Below, one piece after another: positions 4,805 to 55,454 of a stretch of 64,000 nt of DNA; the first letter of the stretch is position 1; the number at the start of each line of letters is the position of its first letter. Origin of the DNA: Saccharospirillum mangrovi (GTDB taxonomy: Bacteria > Pseudomonadota > Gammaproteobacteria > Pseudomonadales > Natronospirillaceae). The stretch spans positions 1,796,001-1,860,000 of the forward strand of contig NZ_CP031415.1 in assembly GCF_003367315.1 (NCBI RefSeq), given 5' to 3'. Under the pieces are notes generated by a model. The model saw only the letters and a list, made by a program, of their open reading frames with translations, searched no databases and was not told where the DNA came from. Position numbers and translations under genes: made by a program.

Positions 4805-5335
4805 ATGTCGAAATCCGAGCTTCCCGACCACCTCGATGCTTATAAGCTGGCGGACCAGAAAGTCTCCCTCAGCGGTCAGGTGTCGTCTGCTCGATTGACC
4901 CGTTTAAGCGAGTCAGTTTTGAGTTTGGGTGACGCCTTTGAGGCGGAGTTGGATTTCTTTCAGGATGAGGAACATCGGCGCATTGTCACCGGCACCGTCC
5001 GGGGGCAGGTCGAGTTGGAGTGTCAGCGTTGTCTGCAACCCATGGTTCAGCCGCTCGACAGCCGCTTCCGCCTTGCCATCGTTTATAACGACGAAATGGC
5101 TAAGGCGTTGCCAGCAGACGATGAACCTTTGCTGTTGTTGCCGGACGAATCGTTAGACCCGGCCAGCATCGTGGAAGAAGAGTTGTTGTTGAGTTTGCCG
5201 TTACAGGCAATGCACAGCGAAGCGGAATGCCGGATTCAGACCGAGTTCAAACCGGAAACAGACGATACCTCGACTGCAACGGAACCGACTCGGGATAACC
5301 CTTTTCAAGTGCTGGCTTCACTGAAAAAGGACTGA
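4805..5335 (+). CDS. yceD: YceD/DUF177 protein, 23S rRNA accumulation protein
   Basis: DUF177 protein encoded upstream of rpmF across bacteria and linked to 23S rRNA accumulation. The characteristic motif [12 protein letters not shown] (about residues 75-86) is present, as is the acidic C-terminus ending [12 protein letters not shown], a conserved YceD tail. Length 176 aa is normal. The start ATG has no obvious Shine-Dalgarno and lies 59 bp from the divergent maf start. It forms the head of the yceD-rpmF-plsX cluster. Confidence 0.92.
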
Positions 5336-47490: not shown

Positions 47491-48384
47491 ATGTCGGGCA
47501 AAACCGTCCCCAGCGCCATTCTGTTGCTGATCATCGGCAACGCCCTGGCGTTGCTGTCGGACGTCATCATCAAACTGCAGGACGCCAACGCGCCGATTTT
47601 CCAATTCATCCTGGTGCGCACGCTGTGCACCCTGACTTTGCTGTTACCGCTGATTCGTCAGGTCGATCGCACAGCCTTGCTGGCAGGTTGGAAGGTTCAT
47701 CTGTTGCGCGCCCACATCAGCATCTTCGGCATCGTCTGCATGATCGTCGCACTGAAAACCCTGCCGCTGGCAACGGCCAATGCCGTCTTCTACGCCGCGC
47801 CTTTGCTGGTGATGTTGTTGGGCGTGGTGTTTGTCGGTGAACGTTTGAGCGTGCCCAGCCTGGTGGCCGTGCTCAGTGGTTTTCTGGGCATTGTCGTGAT
47901 TCTGCGCCCGGTGGCGTTTGACTGGGCCAGCCTCAGTGCGGTCGGCGTCGCCTTTACGCTGGCCATCGGTGTGCTGCTGGTGCGCAAACTGCCGGCCGGT
48001 CAATCGACCGTGCATTCGCTGGTGTTGGTGCATTTGATGATGTTGCCGACCTTGGTCGTATTAACTCTGGTCGAAGCCGCCCCTTGGGATTCCAGCCTGG
48101 TGCTGTCGGCCTTTGGTTCGGCGTTTTTCATTCTGTGTTATCAGGTGACGGTGCTGAAAGCCTACCGTTGGGTGGCAGCGAACCGGGTGACCAGTGCGGA
48201 ATACACCGGCCTGATCTGGGCGATCCTCGGTGGCTGGGCGTTCTTTGGCGAGCAGCCAGACGTCTACTTCATTCTGGGTGCGTTGATGATTGTACTGCCG
48301 CTGCTGTGGTTGGGTTGGCACGAACACCGTCCGCGCCGGAAACTGCGCCCACAACACGAGCTTCAGGCGTCGACAATCCAGTAA
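47491..48384 (+). CDS. EamA/DMT-family transporter
   Basis: Ten membrane helices in two EamA repeats (residues about 8-140 and 150-280), e.g. TANAVFYAAPLLVMLLGVVF at the end of the first and TSAEYTGLIWAILGGWAFF in the second. Length 297 aa from the ATG at 47491, which has GGAG upstream; a longer reading from 47362 crosses the promoter region. Likely a metabolite or amino-acid exporter. Overlaps the convergent apbE by 22 bp. Confidence 0.85.
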   Translation: MSGKTVPSAILLLIIGNALALLSDVIIKLQDANAPIFQFILVRTLCTLTLLLPLIRQVDRTALLAGWKVHLLRAHISIFGIVCMIVALKTLPLATANAVFYAAPLLVMLLGVVFVGERLSVPSLVAVLSGFLGIVVILRPVAFDWASLSAVGVAFTLAIGVLLVRKLPAGQSTVHSLVLVHLMMLPTLVVLTLVEAAPWDSSLVLSAFGSAFFILCYQVTVLKAYRWVAANRVTSAEYTGLIWAILGGWAFFGEQPDVYFILGALMIVLPLLWLGWHEHRPRRKLRPQHELQASTIQ

Positions 48385-49310
48385 GGCAAGCCGGTCTGTT
48401 CGAGAAAAGCGCGTGCATCGGCGCCGGCGAGCATCGCCAGACTGGCGACCAGACCGCTTTGAATGCAGCTGGGTGCCGCCACCGTTACTGAACGCGGCGC
48501 GTTTTCCACCGGCCAGCCGGTAATCGGGTCGAGCAAATGGCTGTATCGGCGGCCGTCACACAATAGAAACCGACGGCTGTCGCCGGATGTTGCCAGTCCA
48601 CCTTTCGCCAGTTTCAGCATTAATGCCGACTGCCCTTCCTGCTCCGGCGCTTCCACCCCAACCCGCCAGGGTTGCTGATCGGCCCTGGGGCCACTGCACG
48701 CTAAATCGCCACCCAGATTGACCAGAATGCCACTGCTGCGCCAACGCGCCGGAATGGCTTGCAGGCACAAACCCAGCGCCCGGTCGGCGGCGTATTCTTT
48801 GCCGATGCCGCCGAAATCCAGCTCCATGCCAGCCGGGATTGTCAGCCAGCCGCCGGTAATTTCGCCTTTGGCGCCGGCGTCATCTGAACGCCAATCCAGT
48901 TGTTGCCAGCCTATGCGTGGCAACAGGGCGGCTACTGCTTCTGCCGTGGGCAGACGGTCGCTGCCATCGAATTTCCACACCTGGCGCAGCAGGCCGGATG
49001 TCAGGTCAAAACGACCGTCCGACAGCCGCCAGGCCTGCTCGGCGAAATTCAGCAGCCGGGCCGTTTCGGCATCGACGCGCTGAGACTGCCCCGGTTGAGC
49101 GTGCAAGGCGGCAAACAGATTGTCGGTGCGATAGCGGCTGTAGCGCTGTTCAATGCGCCAGACTTCGTCTGCCGCCACCTTCAACAAACGTCGTGCCAGT
49201 TCCCGCTGCGTCTGTGGCAAGGCAAGCAGCACCTCACAGGGGCTGGCCATGGCGTCAAAACGCCCCAGCCAGGCATCCCCTTGCCAGTCCAGACGCAGCG
49301 AGCGCTGCAT
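48363..49310 (-). CDS. apbE: FAD:protein FMN transferase ApbE
   Basis: Attaches FMN from FAD covalently to a Thr/Ser of target proteins. Family motifs are FDLTSGLLRQVW, LDFGGIGKEYAADRAL, GILVNLGGDL, SGDSRRFLLCDGRRYSHLLD and DPITGWPV. Length 315 aa. Unusually no signal peptide or lipobox is visible at the N-terminus (MQRSLRLDWQGDAW), whereas most ApbE are exported. Its ATG overlaps the DUF3570 stop by one base, so the two are translationally coupled. Last gene of the TlpA-DUF4266-DUF3570-ApbE operon. Confidence 0.93.
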   Translation of the reverse strand: MQRSLRLDWQGDAWLGRFDAMASPCEVLLALPQTQRELARRLLKVAADEVWRIEQRYSRYRTDNLFAALHAQPGQSQRVDAETARLLNFAEQAWRLSDGRFDLTSGLLRQVWKFDGSDRLPTAEAVAALLPRIGWQQLDWRSDDAGAKGEITGGWLTIPAGMELDFGGIGKEYAADRALGLCLQAIPARWRSSGILVNLGGDLACSGPRADQQPWRVGVEAPEQEGQSALMLKLAKGGLATSGDSRRFLLCDGRRYSHLLDPITGWPVENAPRSVTVAAPSCIQSGLVASLAMLAGADARAFLEQTGLPYWIVDA

Positions 49311-50626
49311 CAGAAACGCCCACCGATGGTCAGCATCACGGCGGTCATCTCGGGCAGATCACCGGCATCGGCTGGAGTGGTGTCAGAACTGTTGTCAGAA
49401 CCAAAGTCACGAGGCATTTGTCGATAGGCCGCCAAACGGGTGTAGAGCTCGGTTTTCTCGTCGAAGCGGTAACCATAGCGCACGCCCAGCGTCCAGGCGT
49501 CGAAATCGCCCAGTCGATAGTCAGCCGTCAGTGCCTGCGGGTCGTCCGCCAACTGCGCGCTGGTGACATACGGCTGGTAGGCATCGATGGCGGACTGGCT
49601 GTACCAGCGCACCTGCGGTTCCAGATACTGGTGACCAAAGCGCCAGCGGTAACGCGCATCCACGGTGTGAGACGTCATGCCCCAGTCGTCGAACAGGAAG
49701 CGGTAGCTGCCATCGAGGATGTCACCGCCGTCGAACTGGTATTTGCCCTGCCAGAACAACGCCTGCTTGAGTCGGCTGTCCGGGCGCTGCTCGTAACGGT
49801 AGCCCTGCAAGGTTCCGCCAGCGGTATCGTAGACACTGACGATCTTGTACGGGTCAGTCAGGTAGCCGTTGTTGTAGCTGAGGCTGTAGTTGAACTGCAT
49901 CAGCGAGCGGCGGTTGATGATCTGAGTGACGCCGAATATCACGTCTGTGACCTGTTTGTCGGCTTCTTTGCCATCACGGCTGGCATCGAAATCGACGCTG
50001 AAGCTGCCACTGCCCGGCTCGGCCATGGCGCTGAGACCCACCGGAACGCCACCTTCGGGCGTCAGTACGTCCAGCGACAGACTCGTCGCCAGCGTGACGG
50101 TGGTGTTCTTGTTGTTGAAATAGCGCGACAGGCTGGCGTTGCCACCGCGCGATTCATAGTCGTGCTCGGTCGAATAATGCACGCCACCGGAATAGCTCCA
50201 ATCGCGACCCAGCGGGGCTGACCATTGGATGTTGCCGGTGTAACGGGTATCGCGGAAGGTGTCGTCCAGCGGCAGATCGCCAGCCTCGACGGTGTAACTG
50301 CCACGACCGGACGGTCGGGTGAACGTCTGCGGCTGATCCGACGGCATGGCGCCATTGGGCGAAGCGCCGGTCAGCGTATCCAGCGTCAGCTTGAAGTTCA
50401 GGCTGGTTTCGCTGTCGAAGTTGCGCGTCGCACCCAACACCGCCTCGGTGGCTTCAACCCGGTCATTGCTTTCGGTGTATTGCAGCACGGCGGCGTCGAA
50501 GTCCCAGTTTTCCAGCTCACCGGCCATGGCCTGGTTGGGCAGGCCCTGCAACACAGCGCAACCGATGGCCGCCAGACTGGCGCCGAGCGCTGCGCCCGGA
50601 CGCGTCAATGAAGTATCCGATTTCAT
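49310..50626 (-). CDS. DUF3570 protein, predicted outer-membrane beta-barrel
   Basis: A signal peptide (residues 1-35, cut near NQAMA/GELEN) precedes about 400 residues of alternating amphipathic beta strands rich in Tyr, Ser and Asp, ending with the aromatic residue Phe (MLTIGGRF), as outer-membrane barrels do. LTGASPNGA at residues 85-93 is a DUF3570 hallmark; within it DTLTGAS (83-89) resembles the ApbE flavinylation motif D-x-x-[ST]-G-A-[ST]. The sequence ends directly on the apbE start. Function unknown; context suggests an envelope redox or metal-related role. Confidence 0.8.
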   Translation of the reverse strand: MKSDTSLTRPGAALGASLAAIGCAVLQGLPNQAMAGELENWDFDAAVLQYTESNDRVEATEAVLGATRNFDSETSLNFKLTLDTLTGASPNGAMPSDQPQTFTRPSGRGSYTVEAGDLPLDDTFRDTRYTGNIQWSAPLGRDWSYSGGVHYSTEHDYESRGGNASLSRYFNNKNTTVTLATSLSLDVLTPEGGVPVGLSAMAEPGSGSFSVDFDASRDGKEADKQVTDVIFGVTQIINRRSLMQFNYSLSYNNGYLTDPYKIVSVYDTAGGTLQGYRYEQRPDSRLKQALFWQGKYQFDGGDILDGSYRFLFDDWGMTSHTVDARYRWRFGHQYLEPQVRWYSQSAIDAYQPYVTSAQLADDPQALTADYRLGDFDAWTLGVRYGYRFDEKTELYTRLAAYRQMPRDFGSDNSSDTTPADAGDLPEMTAVMLTIGGRF

Positions 50627-50642: not shown

Positions 50643-50861
50643 TCAGTTACAACCACAACCGCCGCCGCCAAAGCCGCGACCGCCACTGCTGCCTTCTTTA
50701 CTGAAATAGACGTGATCGTCGAGCGCCGCTTCGATGGGGTCGCTGATCAATTCCATGTCCTGCTGGGCCAGCAAATCACGCTCCCAGGGCTTGACGCCGA
50801 GTGAGCTGCAACCGGCCAGCAGAACGGTGAATGCCAAGGTCAACACAGTGAGTGATTTCAT
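50643..50861 (-). CDS. DUF4266 small lipoprotein with Gly/Cys tail
   Basis: A 72-aa protein: signal peptide with lipobox VLLAGC (Cys18), then LGVKPWERDLLAQQDMEL and IEAALDDHVYFSKEGSSGG, and a tail RGFGGGGCGCN. This is the DUF4266 pattern. After processing only about 55 residues remain. The tail with two cysteines separated by one glycine could bind a metal or be a redox or modified site. Located between the TlpA-like gene (5-bp gap) and DUF3570 (16-bp gap), so it should act with both. Confidence 0.82.
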   Translation of the reverse strand: MKSLTVLTLAFTVLLAGCSSLGVKPWERDLLAQQDMELISDPIEAALDDHVYFSKEGSSGGRGFGGGGCGCN

Positions 50862-50866
50862 CGTCG

Positions 50867-51403
50867 TTACTCCGCTAACAGCTGTTCAATGCTGGCTTCG
50901 TAGTCCGCCACCTTGTTGCCGTGGAAACCGATGTGCGACGCGCGAATGCGACCCTGACGGTCGATCAAATAGCTCGACGGCATGCCAAACAGGCCGTAGG
51001 CCTCGGGCCACTGCGCCTGGGTATCCAGCAAGATGGTGAAATCGGCCGGGACTTTGGTGAGGAAGTCGCGTGCGGCCGCCGGGTCCTGATCCAGGTTGAC
51101 GCCGACGATTACCAGACCCTGATCGCCAAAACGCTGCTGGACGGTGTTCATCCAGGGAAACGATTCGCGACACGGGCCGCACCAGGACGCCCAGAAATCG
51201 AGCAGAACAACCTGACCGCGCAGATCGTTGAGCGACACCGGCTGACCATCGAGGTCCAGCAACGCCTGATCGGCGTGCGGCGCAGCTTTGGCGTCAGCGG
51301 CCGAAAACAATTCGTCAGCCTGGGCTGAGCCGGTCAGAGCGACCAGTACCAGACTGATGCCCAGTAGCAGGTGCAAACGAATAGAACGAATGAAGGTAGT
51401 CAT
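50867..51403 (-). CDS. TlpA/ResA-like periplasmic thioredoxin
   Basis: A signal peptide (residues 1-29, LTGSAQA/D) leads to a thioredoxin fold with WCGPC (Cys75, Cys78) in FWASWCGPCRESFPWM and the cis-Pro region GMPSSYLID. Length 178 aa. Likely a reductant of periplasmic protein thiols and fed by DsbD, whose gene is divergent. First gene of the leftward operon; its -35-like TTGACG (51449-51444) abuts the CTTAAG array. Confidence 0.88.
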   Translation of the reverse strand: MTTFIRSIRLHLLLGISLVLVALTGSAQADELFSAADAKAAPHADQALLDLDGQPVSLNDLRGQVVLLDFWASWCGPCRESFPWMNTVQQRFGDQGLVIVGVNLDQDPAAARDFLTKVPADFTILLDTQAQWPEAYGLFGMPSSYLIDRQGRIRASHIGFHGNKVADYEASIEQLLAE

Positions 51404-51449
51404 ACGACGGACCCGGTTGTGAGTTCAGGCCGAAGCATGAGGTCGTCAA

Positions 51450-51488
51450 CTTAAGGCAGTCTTAAGCGGCACTTAAGATGGCCTTAAG
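51450..51488. promoter_or_regulatory. Four CTTAAG boxes at exact 11-bp spacing
   Basis: CTTAAG occurs at 51450-51455, 51461-51466, 51472-51477 and 51483-51488, each separated by 5 bp, so all four face the same side of the helix. CTTAA-N5-CTTAA is the form of the PmrA/QseB box bound by OmpR-family regulators. The array sits in the 131-bp gap between the divergent tlpA-like and dsbD operons; a regulator of this class is encoded in the dsbD operon. Confidence 0.85.
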
Positions 51489-51489
51489 G

Positions 51490-51519
51490 TTGATCGACGA
51501 GGCTGAGCGTGACGATATA
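51490..51519 (+). promoter_or_regulatory. Candidate dsbD promoter
   Basis: TTGATC (51490-51495), 18-bp spacer, GATATA (51514-51519). The -35 starts two bases after the last CTTAAG box, a position suited to activation. Confidence 0.5.
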
Positions 51520-51534
51520 CGAGGAGATTCCGTC

Positions 51535-53376
51535 ATGAAGTCTGCCGCCGTTGCCTGGGCTGTGTTGCTGTCTGCTGTGATGTCATTGCTGGCACCGCTG
51601 TCCCAGGCTGAGGAATTTTTACCGCCCGATCAGGCTTTCCAGCCCAATGTCGTTGTCGATGCCGAATCAGCCGCCCTGCGCCTGCATTGGGACATTGCCG
51701 ATGGCTACTACCTGTACAAATCCCGGGTTCAGGTCTCGTTGAACGGTCAGCCATCGGAACTGATCTTCGACAGCGAGTCCGAATTGAAGCAAGACCCCAA
51801 CTTCGGCCCGATGGACGTTTTCCACCACGAAATGGCCCTGCACACGGCGTTGCCCGCCACCTCGGCTGATACTTATGAAATGACGCTGACCTATCAGGGC
51901 TGCGCCGAAGCTGGCCTGTGCTACCCGCCGCAAACCAAGCGGATGAGTTTGGAAAATCCGGGTTTGGCAAATCCGGGGTTGGTGAACACAACCAACGCAC
52001 CTTCCATCGCAGCACCGGCGACCTCTGGCCTGGACAGCGCCAACAACGCCACCGGCCTTGCCAGTTGGATGGCTGACGCCAGTCTGGTGTGGATTCTGGG
52101 TACCTTTTTCGTATTGGGCCTGGGCCTGACCTTTACTCCCTGCGTGTTGCCGATGGTGCCGATTCTGGCGGGCATCATTGCTGGTCAGGGTGAACAGATC
52201 AGTGCGCGTAAAGGCGCCAGTCTGTCGCTGGCTTATGTGTTGGGCATGGCGACCACCTACACGCTGGCGGGTGTGCTGGTGGGTTTCTTTGGCGCCCGGC
52301 TGAACCTGCAAACAGCGCTGCAAAACCCCATCGCGCTGTCGATTTTTGCTGGCATCTTCGTGGTGTTGTCGTTGGCTATGTTCGGCTTCTATGAATTGCA
52401 GATGCCGTCGTTCATTCGTAATCGCCTGGGCCAGATGGACACCGGTAGCGCCCGCAGCGGCATCGCCCGTTACGGCAGTGTGGCGTTGATGGGTCTGGTG
52501 TCGGCACTGGTGGTCTCGCCGTGTGTGTCTGCGCCCCTGGCCGGTACGCTGATCTACATCAGCACCACGGGCGATGCGCTGCTCGGCGGCTCGGCGCTGT
52601 TTATGCTCAGCCTCGGTATGGGCGCGCCGTTATTGCTGGTCGGCGCTGGCGGCGGACGTCTGCTGCCTAAAGCTGGTATGTGGATGATTGCCGTTAAGCA
52701 GTTCTTCGGTGTGGTGCTGCTCGGTATTGCCATCACCCTGGTGTCCCGCTTCCTGCCCGGCGCGGTCAGTCTGGCGCTGTGGGGCTTGCTGATTCTGGTG
52801 TACGCCGCACAACTGGGCCTGGGTGGCGAAGCGCAGACCGGCTGGCAGAAAACCCGACGCGGCATCGCCGCTGCCATGGGCATTTATTCCGGTGCATTGT
52901 TGATTGGCGCTCTGGCGGGTCAGACTGATCCGTTGCAGCCGCTGGCCGGGCTCGGCGCAGGCCGCTCTGGCGTGGCTGCCGAACAAGGCGTTGCACCGGC
53001 GTTGTTTGAGCGCATTGCCGATGTGGCTGAACTGAACCGGCAAATGGCCATCGCCCAACAAAGCGGCGAAGCCGTAGTGCTCGATCTGTATGCCGACTGG
53101 TGCACCGCCTGCCAGGACATGGAAAGGGCCGTGTTCGAGCATGAAACCGGCAACTACAGCGGCCAGATCCGCTTCCTGCAACTGGACGTCACCCGCAACA
53201 GCGACGCCCACGTTAATTTCCTCGAATCCCACAAGCTGTTTGGCCCGCCCGCCCTGCTCTATTACAACGCTCAGGGCAATGAAGCAGCCGGGCTGCGCAC
53301 GCTGGGCGAAATCGACTTCGAGCAATGGCGCGGGCAACTGGCTAGTCTATTGTCTGACGACGACCGGACTTTGTGA
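51535..53376 (+). CDS. dsbD: Thiol:disulfide interchange protein DsbD
   Basis: Moves electrons from cytoplasmic thioredoxin to periplasmic thiol proteins. Signal peptide (1-25, LSQA/EEF), the N-terminal alpha domain with Cys123 and Cys129 in QGCAEAGLCYPP, eight membrane helices with Cys in LTFTPCVLPMVP and VVSPCVSAPLAGT, and a C-terminal thioredoxin domain with Cys523 and Cys526 in YADWCTACQDME. Length 613 aa from ATG 51535, which has GAGGAG upstream; a TTG at 51478 would start inside the regulatory array. Followed after 9 bp by the response regulator. Confidence 0.95.
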   Translation: MKSAAVAWAVLLSAVMSLLAPLSQAEEFLPPDQAFQPNVVVDAESAALRLHWDIADGYYLYKSRVQVSLNGQPSELIFDSESELKQDPNFGPMDVFHHEMALHTALPATSADTYEMTLTYQGCAEAGLCYPPQTKRMSLENPGLANPGLVNTTNAPSIAAPATSGLDSANNATGLASWMADASLVWILGTFFVLGLGLTFTPCVLPMVPILAGIIAGQGEQISARKGASLSLAYVLGMATTYTLAGVLVGFFGARLNLQTALQNPIALSIFAGIFVVLSLAMFGFYELQMPSFIRNRLGQMDTGSARSGIARYGSVALMGLVSALVVSPCVSAPLAGTLIYISTTGDALLGGSALFMLSLGMGAPLLLVGAGGGRLLPKAGMWMIAVKQFFGVVLLGIAITLVSRFLPGAVSLALWGLLILVYAAQLGLGGEAQTGWQKTRRGIAAAMGIYSGALLIGALAGQTDPLQPLAGLGAGRSGVAAEQGVAPALFERIADVAELNRQMAIAQQSGEAVVLDLYADWCTACQDMERAVFEHETGNYSGQIRFLQLDVTRNSDAHVNFLESHKLFGPPALLYYNAQGNEAAGLRTLGEIDFEQWRGQLASLLSDDDRTL

Positions 53377-53385
53377 TCTTTACCC

Positions 53386-54054
53386 ATGCGCTTATTGCTG
53401 ATTGAAGACGACGACGATCTGCGCGACGGCGTCCGTACGGCCCTGAAATCCGAAGGTTACACCCTGGATTGTCTGGCCGACGGCCGCCAGGCGTTGCACG
53501 CACTGCGCCACGAACGGTTCGATCTGGTATTGCTGGATTTGGGCTTGCCGGGCCTGGACGGCTTAACGGTACTGAAAACACTGCGCGCCGAAGGCAAACC
53601 AACCCCGGTGTTGATCCTGACCGCGCGCGATGCCGTGACCGACCGCATCGCTGGCCTCGACAGCGGCGCCGACGACTATCTGGTCAAGCCGTTCGACATC
53701 ACCGAACTCAAAGCCCGCATACGGGCGCTGCTGCGTCGCAGTGCCGGCCGTGCCGACAGCGCCCTGCAATACGGCAATCTGCGCATCGACCCGGCCACGC
53801 AAAGCGTGCACCTTCACGACCAGGCCATCGCCCTAACCCGGCGCGAATTTGCGCTCTTGCATGAACTGGCGAACCAGCCGGGGCATGTGTTCACGCGCGA
53901 TCATTTGCAGCAGTTGCTGTACGGCTGGGACGACGAAGTGGAAAGCAACACCTTGGAAGTGCACGTCCATCATCTGCGCAAAAAGCTCTTTCCCGGATTG
54001 ATCCGCACCTTACGCGGCGTTGGATACGCCCTGGACAAGGACGCCCAGCCATGA
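53386..54054 (+). CDS. OmpR-family response regulator (QseB/PmrA type)
   Basis: Receiver with acidic IEDDDD at 6-11, phospho-acceptor Asp51 in LVLLDLGLPGLDGL and Lys in YLVKPFDI, then a winged-helix domain with LTRREFALLHELA and ESNTLEVHVHHLRKKL. Length 222 aa. Regulators of this subgroup bind CTTAA-N5-CTTAA repeats, exactly what lies upstream of dsbD. Overlaps its kinase by ATGA. Transcribed with dsbD, so autoregulation is likely. Confidence 0.92.
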   Translation: MRLLLIEDDDDLRDGVRTALKSEGYTLDCLADGRQALHALRHERFDLVLLDLGLPGLDGLTVLKTLRAEGKPTPVLILTARDAVTDRIAGLDSGADDYLVKPFDITELKARIRALLRRSAGRADSALQYGNLRIDPATQSVHLHDQAIALTRREFALLHELANQPGHVFTRDHLQQLLYGWDDEVESNTLEVHVHHLRKKLFPGLIRTLRGVGYALDKDAQP

Positions 54055-55454
54055 GGTTCCAGTCCATCCGCAGCCGGACGCTGGGTATGGCACTGGTACT
54101 GCTGCTGAGCGCCAGTTCAGTGATCACCTGGTTCAGCTTTAACGACGCCGCCCACGAAGTGGAAGAACTCTACGACGCCCATCTGGCGCAGCAGGCGCGA
54201 TTGCTTGGCAATCTGATTGCGGGGCTGAACCGCACCACACTGAGCACCATCGAGAAACTGAGATTGCTCAGCACGCTGGAAGAACTCAGCGCCCAGGCCG
54301 ACCCGCGTCTGGGCCATCCCTACGAAAGCAAGGTGGTGTTTCAGGTCTGGCTGAATGATCAATTGATTCTGCGCTCGGTCAACGCGCCCTCAGAGCAATT
54401 GACCGATTATGAAGGCGGCTTTACCAACGAGCGGGTCGCCAATGCTCGCTGGCGCGTCTTTGTGTTGCCCGGCAGCGAGAGCGATGCCAGTAGCCAGGAA
54501 CGCATCATCATCGCTGAACGCTGGGACGTTCGTGGCGAGCTGGTGGCGGGGATTGCGTTGCGCAGTCTGCTGCCGGAGTTATTCGGCTTGCCGATTCTGG
54601 CTGCCCTGTTGTGGTGGGCTATCGGGCGTGGGCTGCACCCGCTGGCGCAACTGGCCCGGCAGATTCGTCAACGCGAGCCGCATTCGCTGCAACCGTTGCC
54701 GTCCGGGCCATTACCAACCGAATTGGATGTCATTCACCACGCCATCAATGATCTGCTCGCCCAACTGAAACAACGCCTGGAGCGCGAGCAGCAGTTTATT
54801 GCCGATGCCGCGCACGAGCTGCGTACGCCGCTGTCGGTGCTCAGCCTGCACACTCAGAACGCGATTGGCAGCCCGGACGAGGCCGATCGTCAGGCGGCGT
54901 TGCAATCGTTGCAGTCCGGTCTCGATCGGACTACCCGCATCGTGGCGCAGTTGCTGACGCTGGCGCGTCTGGACCCGGACGACACGCCGCCCACGCAGCC
55001 AACCGATGTCCTGGCCGTCACTCGACAGGAATTGGCCAATCTGGCGCCGTTGGCCTGGCGCGATGGCGTCGATTTATTGCTGTTGAACGAAGACGATCAC
55101 GCCTGGCAACTGCTGGCTGAAGCCGGCAGCGTCGAGATTCTGCTGCAAAATCTGATCAGTAATGCTTTGCGGCATGGCGCGGCGGGCAAACAGATTGAGA
55201 TTGACTGGCAGCCACGCGACGACGGGCTGGAATTGAGCGTTACCGACCATGGCCCTGGTGTCGCCGATGAAAAAAAACCGCTGTTGTTGCAGCGGTTCTA
55301 TCGGACCGGATCAGAGGGTGGCGCGGGTTTGGGTCTGTCGATTGTGGCGCGCATCGTTGAGCGTCATCAGGCAACGCTGCGGCTGGACGATACGCCGGGT
55401 GGCGGATTAGTCGTCCGCATCCTCTGGCCGCAACAGCGGATAATCGTGCACTAA
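54051..55454 (+). CDS. Sensor histidine kinase (QseC/PmrB type)
   Basis: Two membrane segments (residues about 11-29 and 174-192) flank a periplasmic sensor of roughly 140 residues; then HisKA with His255 in FIADAAHELRTPLSVL and a HATPase with LLQNLISNALRHG, VTDHGPGVAD and GGAGLGLSIVARIV. Length 467 aa. Signal unknown; gene context points to envelope redox or metal stress. Its last 48 bp overlap the convergent solute-binding gene. Confidence 0.92.
   Translation: MRFQSIRSRTLGMALVLLLSASSVITWFSFNDAAHEVEELYDAHLAQQARLLGNLIAGLNRTTLSTIEKLRLLSTLEELSAQADPRLGHPYESKVVFQVWLNDQLILRSVNAPSEQLTDYEGGFTNERVANARWRVFVLPGSESDASSQERIIIAERWDVRGELVAGIALRSLLPELFGLPILAALLWWAIGRGLHPLAQLARQIRQREPHSLQPLPSGPLPTELDVIHHAINDLLAQLKQRLEREQQFIADAAHELRTPLSVLSLHTQNAIGSPDEADRQAALQSLQSGLDRTTRIVAQLLTLARLDPDDTPPTQPTDVLAVTRQELANLAPLAWRDGVDLLLLNEDDHAWQLLAEAGSVEILLQNLISNALRHGAAGKQIEIDWQPRDDGLELSVTDHGPGVADEKKPLLLQRFYRTGSEGGAGLGLSIVARIVERHQATLRLDDTPGGGLVVRILWPQQRIIVH

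Follow-up and report, generated by a model that had tools for sequence, protein, structure and literature searches.

A four-box PmrA-type array as putative operator of two divergent redox operons in Saccharospirillum mangrovi

The gap between two divergent redox operons of Saccharospirillum mangrovi harbored four CTTAAG boxes (51450-51455, 51461-51466, 51472-51477 and 51483-51488) with a period of exactly 11 bp. This array probably consists of two back-to-back PmrA-type sites, at which the response regulator encoded nearby would activate both operons and, with them, itself. Coordinates refer to the window, i.e., the whole 64 kb stretch of DNA analyzed. Direct reading of positions 51450-51488 (CTTAAGgcagtCTTAAGcggcaCTTAAGatggcCTTAAG) bore out the box positions and the 11-bp period of the original prediction, while its notation CTTAA-N5-CTTAA was incorrect: the boxes are spaced as CTTAAG-N5-CTTAAG, i.e., CTTAA-N6-CTTAA. 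TTAA-core half-sites lying 11 bp apart correspond to the published PmrA consensus YTTAAK-N5-YTTAAK (PMC10729948). The half-sites described for Salmonella PmrA are CTTAAG and XTTAAT with five bp between them, and Klebsiella PmrA binds half-sites head to tail (PMC3973317). As CTTAAG is its own reverse complement, the strip gives a direct repeat in both directions, and the putative operator (51450..51488, no strand) could offer boxes 1-2 to the left promoter and boxes 3-4 to the right one. Compared with PmrA promoters, the window differed by its four contiguous half-sites, its two divergent promoters and its thiol/flavin redox targets. The new element would be the fused four-box form of a known operator type, placed on a flavinylation/DsbD system.

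Gene content of the two operons

The leftward operon (minus strand) encoded a TlpA/ResA-like thioredoxin-fold protein with a CGPC motif (50870..51403; Pfam Redoxin/AhpC-TSA; CxxC), a small DUF4266 protein with a CxC at its end and the tail GGGGCGCN (50646..50861; PF14086, 4.8e-23), a DUF3570 protein (49313..50626; PF12094, 6.8e-127) and an ApbE FMN transferase (48366..49310; PF02424, 5.4e-60). On the plus strand followed DsbD (51535..53376, with 51535 taken as start; cysteine pairs; NCBIfam DsbD score of 543.8 bits against a cut-off of 330), an OmpR/PhoB-family response regulator near PmrA and QseB, presumed to bind the array (53386..54054), and a sensor histidine kinase with a 2CSK_N sensor region and zero cysteines (54051..55454). 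Pfam assignments agreed with the gene content described earlier for both strands. Only 9 bp separated the end of dsbD (53376) from the start of the regulator gene (53386), and the regulator and kinase frames overlapped by 4 bp, so that dsbD, regulator and kinase probably form one operon. An in-frame ATG at 51478, upstream of the likely dsbD start, sits within the array; it might be taken as the start codon by automated annotation, and the operator would then be hidden within the gene.

All five protein kinds of a DsbD-type flavinylation cluster had Pfam matches in the window, and the protein set was the same as in the published DsbD/DUF3570/DUF4266/ApbE flavinylation clusters (PMC8238504), although the thioredoxin-like gene of the window was of the Redoxin/TlpA type whereas the published clusters were counted by PF13899. 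Flavinylation by ApbE has been demonstrated for a Chlorobium member of the DUF3570 family, and two [ST]GA[ST] flavinylation motifs were described for ApbE-associated DUF3570 members (PMC8238504); the DUF3570 protein of the window had one such motif, TGAS at residue 86. Together, the two gene sets look like the parts of an envelope electron-transfer system, with the array as docking strip for one regulator. A term search of the main text of PMC8238504, the only place in the literature searched where DUF3570 or DUF4266 appeared by name, found no discussion of a two-component regulator or promoter for these clusters. No published regulator of the flavinylation/DsbD system was found in the literature searched, and it is such a system that the array most likely controls.

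Conservation of the box pair among relatives

Conservation was analyzed in a family sample of 22 genomes and an order sample of 390 genomes. Within the order, the regulator had a match at E<=1e-56 in 175 of the 390 genomes, and DUF4266, the small protein that accompanies DUF3570 in flavinylation clusters, was common, being present in 141. In the congener (G015), an orthologous regulator (82% identity; next best genome match 50%) occurred in unchanged gene order, and the locus contained four boxes, CTTAAGgttttCTTAAGcccggCTTAATattgaCTTAAG (L040). Besides this locus, 40 loci around the best regulator matches were analyzed, together with 17 picked by eye because, among the matches listed, regulator and DUF4266 seemed to lie within ~6 kb (3 of the 17 on a guess); DUF4266 was not found by BLAST in two of these picks (L276 and L277).

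Divergent DsbD/TlpA gaps were obtained from 18 loci (the window, L285, L040, L075, L077, L080, L261, L262 and L264-L273), in twelve of which (L261, L262, L264-L273) the regulator gene was placed after ApbE and not after DsbD. In L263, DsbD lay downstream on the same strand, and the stretch upstream of tlpA was used instead. The array had been predicted to persist in relatives with the same genes beside the regulator, and so it did: two near-CTTAAG boxes (at least 5/6 each) 11 bp apart were found in all 19 regions, whereas 0.21 would be expected from dinucleotide shuffles. Sixteen of these regions were chosen by their genes before their boxes were known, with prior knowledge for the window, L040 and L285; the conserved loci are partly close relatives (L266/L267/L269/L271 and L075/L077/L080) and thus not independent. 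Where the regulator was directly divergent from DUF4266, the pair was present in L096 and L274 and was not found in L275.

The number and arrangement of boxes varied, with the 11-bp spacing preserved in most cases. Four boxes were found in the window, L040, L285 and L261 (one box with a mismatch), and three in L262. Two pairs, with box starts 11, 22 and 11 bp apart, occurred in L075 and L077, and with starts 11, 21 and 11 bp apart in L080 and L270, while the two pairs of L263 and L264 were separated by 74-75 bp and did not fit the 11-bp grid. Single pairs were displayed by L265-L269 and L271-L273, some of which had additional GTTAAT boxes in register with the grid. The relatives thereby provide a natural operator series, from one pair to four fused boxes, for OmpR-family dimers sharing a divergent promoter.

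Such a regular strip could also be an ordinary minisatellite or a chance repeat with no regulatory role. When public genomes were scanned for CTTAA boxes in runs of four with an 11-bp period, at least 120 loci were obtained, many of them near-perfect tandem repeats in unrelated places, as this explanation would have it; 52 of the 120 listed loci, a lower bound, were not simple tandem repeats by a spacer criterion. Against it, the spacers differed within the window and diverged between relatives while boxes and spacing persisted, and the 19 of 19 regions far exceeded chance expectation, which makes a minisatellite barely conceivable here.

DUF4266 clusters away from the regulator served as controls. 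Subtracting the window and the congener from the 19 family matches left 17 places not beside the regulator, 11 of which were examined, and 10 of these 11 had no box pair in 9 kb. Among them, the second DUF4266/DUF3570 clusters of the own genome (around 2804503; L278) and of the congener (L279) are presumably under other control, because no box pair was found in their 9 kb. The remaining cluster (L304), from a family member without an orthologous regulator, displayed a pair, CTTAATCGAAACTTAAA, at position 5185, near the tlpA start. Among the best 30 DUF4266 loci of the order, the pair was present in all five that were regulator-linked and in 5 of the 25 without a regulator seen within ~6 kb (including L242, which is identical with the L304 locus). 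Some DUF4266 clusters may be served by regulators encoded at a distance.

These five unlinked pairs are what speaks for one or more other response regulators of the genome as main binders of the array in place of the linked one. Several observations argue against it: the six other best-matching regulators of the genome had recognition helices unlike that of the linked regulator (NTLEVHVHHLRKKL), both family genomes with an orthologous regulator had the array at the locus, and the exact pairs of three other family genomes (G003, G007 and G011) lay in 3-kb stretches without any of these redox genes. A different binder is therefore quite improbable, and the linked regulator is retained as the candidate.

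Promoter geometry and mode of control

A hexamer of the form NAnnnT was scored at offsets 0-40 outside the outermost box in 18 regions, with L285 left out and the regulator side taken as right. At offset 10, 16 of the 18 flanks on the right and 11 of the 18 on the left carried it, while every other offset reached at most 5 on either side. Five of the seven missing left flanks (L266, L267, L268, L269 and L271) had an extra GTTAAT box with GAAACT 10 bp outside it (read by eye); counting these, the left side would also reach 16 of 18. Still off the rule were L264 on the right and L272 on the left (both at offset 11), L265 on the left and L273 on the right. L285, unused in finding the rule, fitted it on both sides (CAGGCT and AAGAAT).

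Enterobacterial PmrA (BasR) promoters share the two TTAA-core half-sites 11 bp apart, and at E. coli eptA an NAnnnT hexamer (GAGCAT) likewise lies 10 bp from the last box. At E. coli ygiW, the ygiW side missed the rule (TTAAAT) and the qseB side read AAAATT, in an A-rich run.

The conserved hexamer is likely the -10 element. Its proposed copies in the window are CATGCT (51434..51439, minus strand, 10 bp outside box 1) for the TlpA-DUF4266-DUF3570-ApbE operon and GAGGCT (51499..51504, plus strand, 10 bp outside box 4) for the dsbD-regulator-kinase operon. Both matched TATAAT poorly (3/6 and 2/6, respectively), and the homologous position read TATAGT, TACTAT or TATGAT in L075, L077 and L080. With a -10-like hexamer 10 bp outside the outermost box, the box pair itself would lie over the -35 region, and transcription would start near 51427 on the left and 51511 on the right, so that each leader would measure ~24 nt. 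When 51300-51650 was scanned with the sigma-70 consensus, no promoter was found, including any with TTGACG or TTGATC, as expected of activator-dependent promoters.

These two hexamers had been taken in the original prediction for -35 elements abutting the array, TTGACG (51449-51444, minus strand) toward the left and TTGATC (51490-51495, plus strand) toward the right. They are present as letters, and if functional they would imply -10 elements ~17 bp further out. The conserved hexamer at offset 10, the outcome of the consensus scan, the change of TTGATC to TTAATC in the congener (L040) and a right start site that would then adjoin the ribosome-binding site all speak against this role. TTGACG and TTGATC are probably not -35 elements, and their function as such is very improbable.

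The same geometry bears on the sign of control. At both proposed promoters the -35 position falls within the boxes, and geometry alone leaves the sign unfixed, so that the array could be a repressor site: the linked regulator, possibly in its unphosphorylated state, would occlude the two -35 regions and keep both operons shut until a signal arrives. Yet with no consensus promoter in the window there would be little left to repress, and eptA, with the same spacing, is a gene activated by PmrA. At the activated promoter of Klebsiella pbgP, the -35 element likewise lies at the PmrA half-1 site (PMC4660055), which resembles the array placed over the -35 region. Repression is unlikely on these grounds, and from the geometry and the lack of a consensus promoter we infer activation.

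In the activation model, the kinase would phosphorylate the response regulator encoded at 53386. RNA polymerase would be recruited to CATGCT by a regulator dimer bound at boxes 1-2 and to GAGGCT by another dimer at boxes 3-4. The TlpA/DUF4266/DUF3570/ApbE operon and the dsbD/regulator/kinase operon would be switched on jointly, and hence also the regulator's own synthesis. Control of both operons and of the regulator itself from one array, as originally proposed, gains support at the sequence level from the conserved array and the probable dsbD-regulator-kinase operon.

CTTAAG occurred eight times in the 64 kb window, four of them inside the array, and CTTAAG-N5-CTTAAG gave three overlapping matches against none in 100 window shuffles. 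The search for further exact pairs suggested with the prediction was run over the whole 3.69 Mb genome, and the array stayed the sole exact site. Three other places matched the pair with one mismatch, and in none of them did a flank read NAnnnT at offset 10. With up to two mismatches, 29 places were found (the array counted in) against 161 for a reversed control pattern, so that no second target stands out in the genome. A larger CTTAAG regulon in the own genome was set aside on these counts. One single-mismatch site, CTTGAG-N5-CTTAAG at genome position 1358198 (L286), lay a short way upstream of a leftward gene whose product looks like a small secreted protein; this site is a possible second target, but neither flank has NAnnnT at offset 10.

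Regulator identity and four-box arrays elsewhere

The regulator carried a receiver domain (PF00072) and a winged-helix effector domain (PF00486), both above cut-offs, which places it in the OmpR/PhoB family. Its best PDB sequence matches were BasR/PmrA (8jo2 and 4s04), and its identity was 47.5% to E. coli QseB and 46.4% to BasR. Scores against the NCBIfam equivalogs reached 260.1 bits for PmrA (NF007928, cut-off 330) and 229.3 bits for QseB (NF007663, cut-off 345). The regulator is neither PmrA nor QseB by this test, because it fell below both curated cut-offs. The regulator tree, of low support, did not separate nearness to PmrA from nearness to QseB, and DUF3570-linked regulators did not form one clade. 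The earlier assignment to the QseB/PmrA kind within the OmpR family stood as regards the recognition helix, similar to those of BasR/PmrA and QseB, and the type of site, whereas the scores came near both cut-offs without reaching them.

The kinase had the QseC equivalog (NF007664) as its best NCBIfam match, with 229 bits against a cut-off of 475. The window pair resembles QseBC/PreAB in this match and in the identity to QseB, but both proteins scored far below the respective cut-offs, and the published consensus of E. coli QseB was unlike the window array (PMC10729948). By its description, DsbRS of Pseudomonas aeruginosa, linked to dsbDEG, is likewise a two-component system associated with an operon of the dsbD type; it is copper-responsive, and the passage describing it mentions no flavinylation genes (PMC10141476). 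Sensing of thiols through kinase cysteines was considered and set aside. The window kinase has no cysteine, and in the kinases of 22 relatives no sensor-region cysteine was conserved, with at most one within the first 200 residues; direct thiol sensing by the kinase is thus unlikely.

Four palindromic boxes give three dimer registers, 1-2, 2-3 and 3-4. Occupation of 1-2 plus 3-4 is the only one that would fit both promoters, while 2-3 would fit neither, and this suggests the speculative idea of all-or-none coupling. It is possible, if rather doubtful, that the fused strip is a coupling device making both halves fire together and sharply. If so, the DsbD donor side and the DUF3570/TlpA acceptor side would be forced on together.

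At least five of the four-box loci listed in the public-genome scan lay beside ApbE and/or DUF3570 (L177, L159, L161, L191 and L197). The first, from a Pseudomonadaceae MAG (L177/L285), had four boxes, the window's gene order and a regulator of 76% identity. The other four, from Flavobacterium species, displayed four TTAAG/CTTAA boxes with an 11-bp period (L159:1795, L161:3055, L197:4144 and L191:7535) in front of operons that include ApbE along with a thioredoxin-like gene; DUF3570 was seen in three of them. A gene for a 652-residue protein stood between array and thioredoxin-like gene in L159, L161 and L197, while in L191 a distance of 65 bp separated the array from the thioredoxin-like gene downstream. 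Spacers of these arrays differed between species. An OmpR-family regulator followed in two of the four loci (L159 and L191), with a recognition helix, TGVIDVFMNAIRKKL, unlike the window's. Because of this different helix, the four-box arrangement may have originated on more than one occasion around the redox system. In a betaproteobacterial MAG (L114:3670-3707), a four-box TTAAG array immediately preceded the paired genes of a QseB-like regulator and a kinase.

The role of DUF3570/DUF4266 electron transfer is described as uncertain (PMC8238504), and the signal that switches on the array would reveal when cells need this system. A dedicated two-component system whose operator can be read would thus offer a handle on the purpose of the flavinylation cluster.
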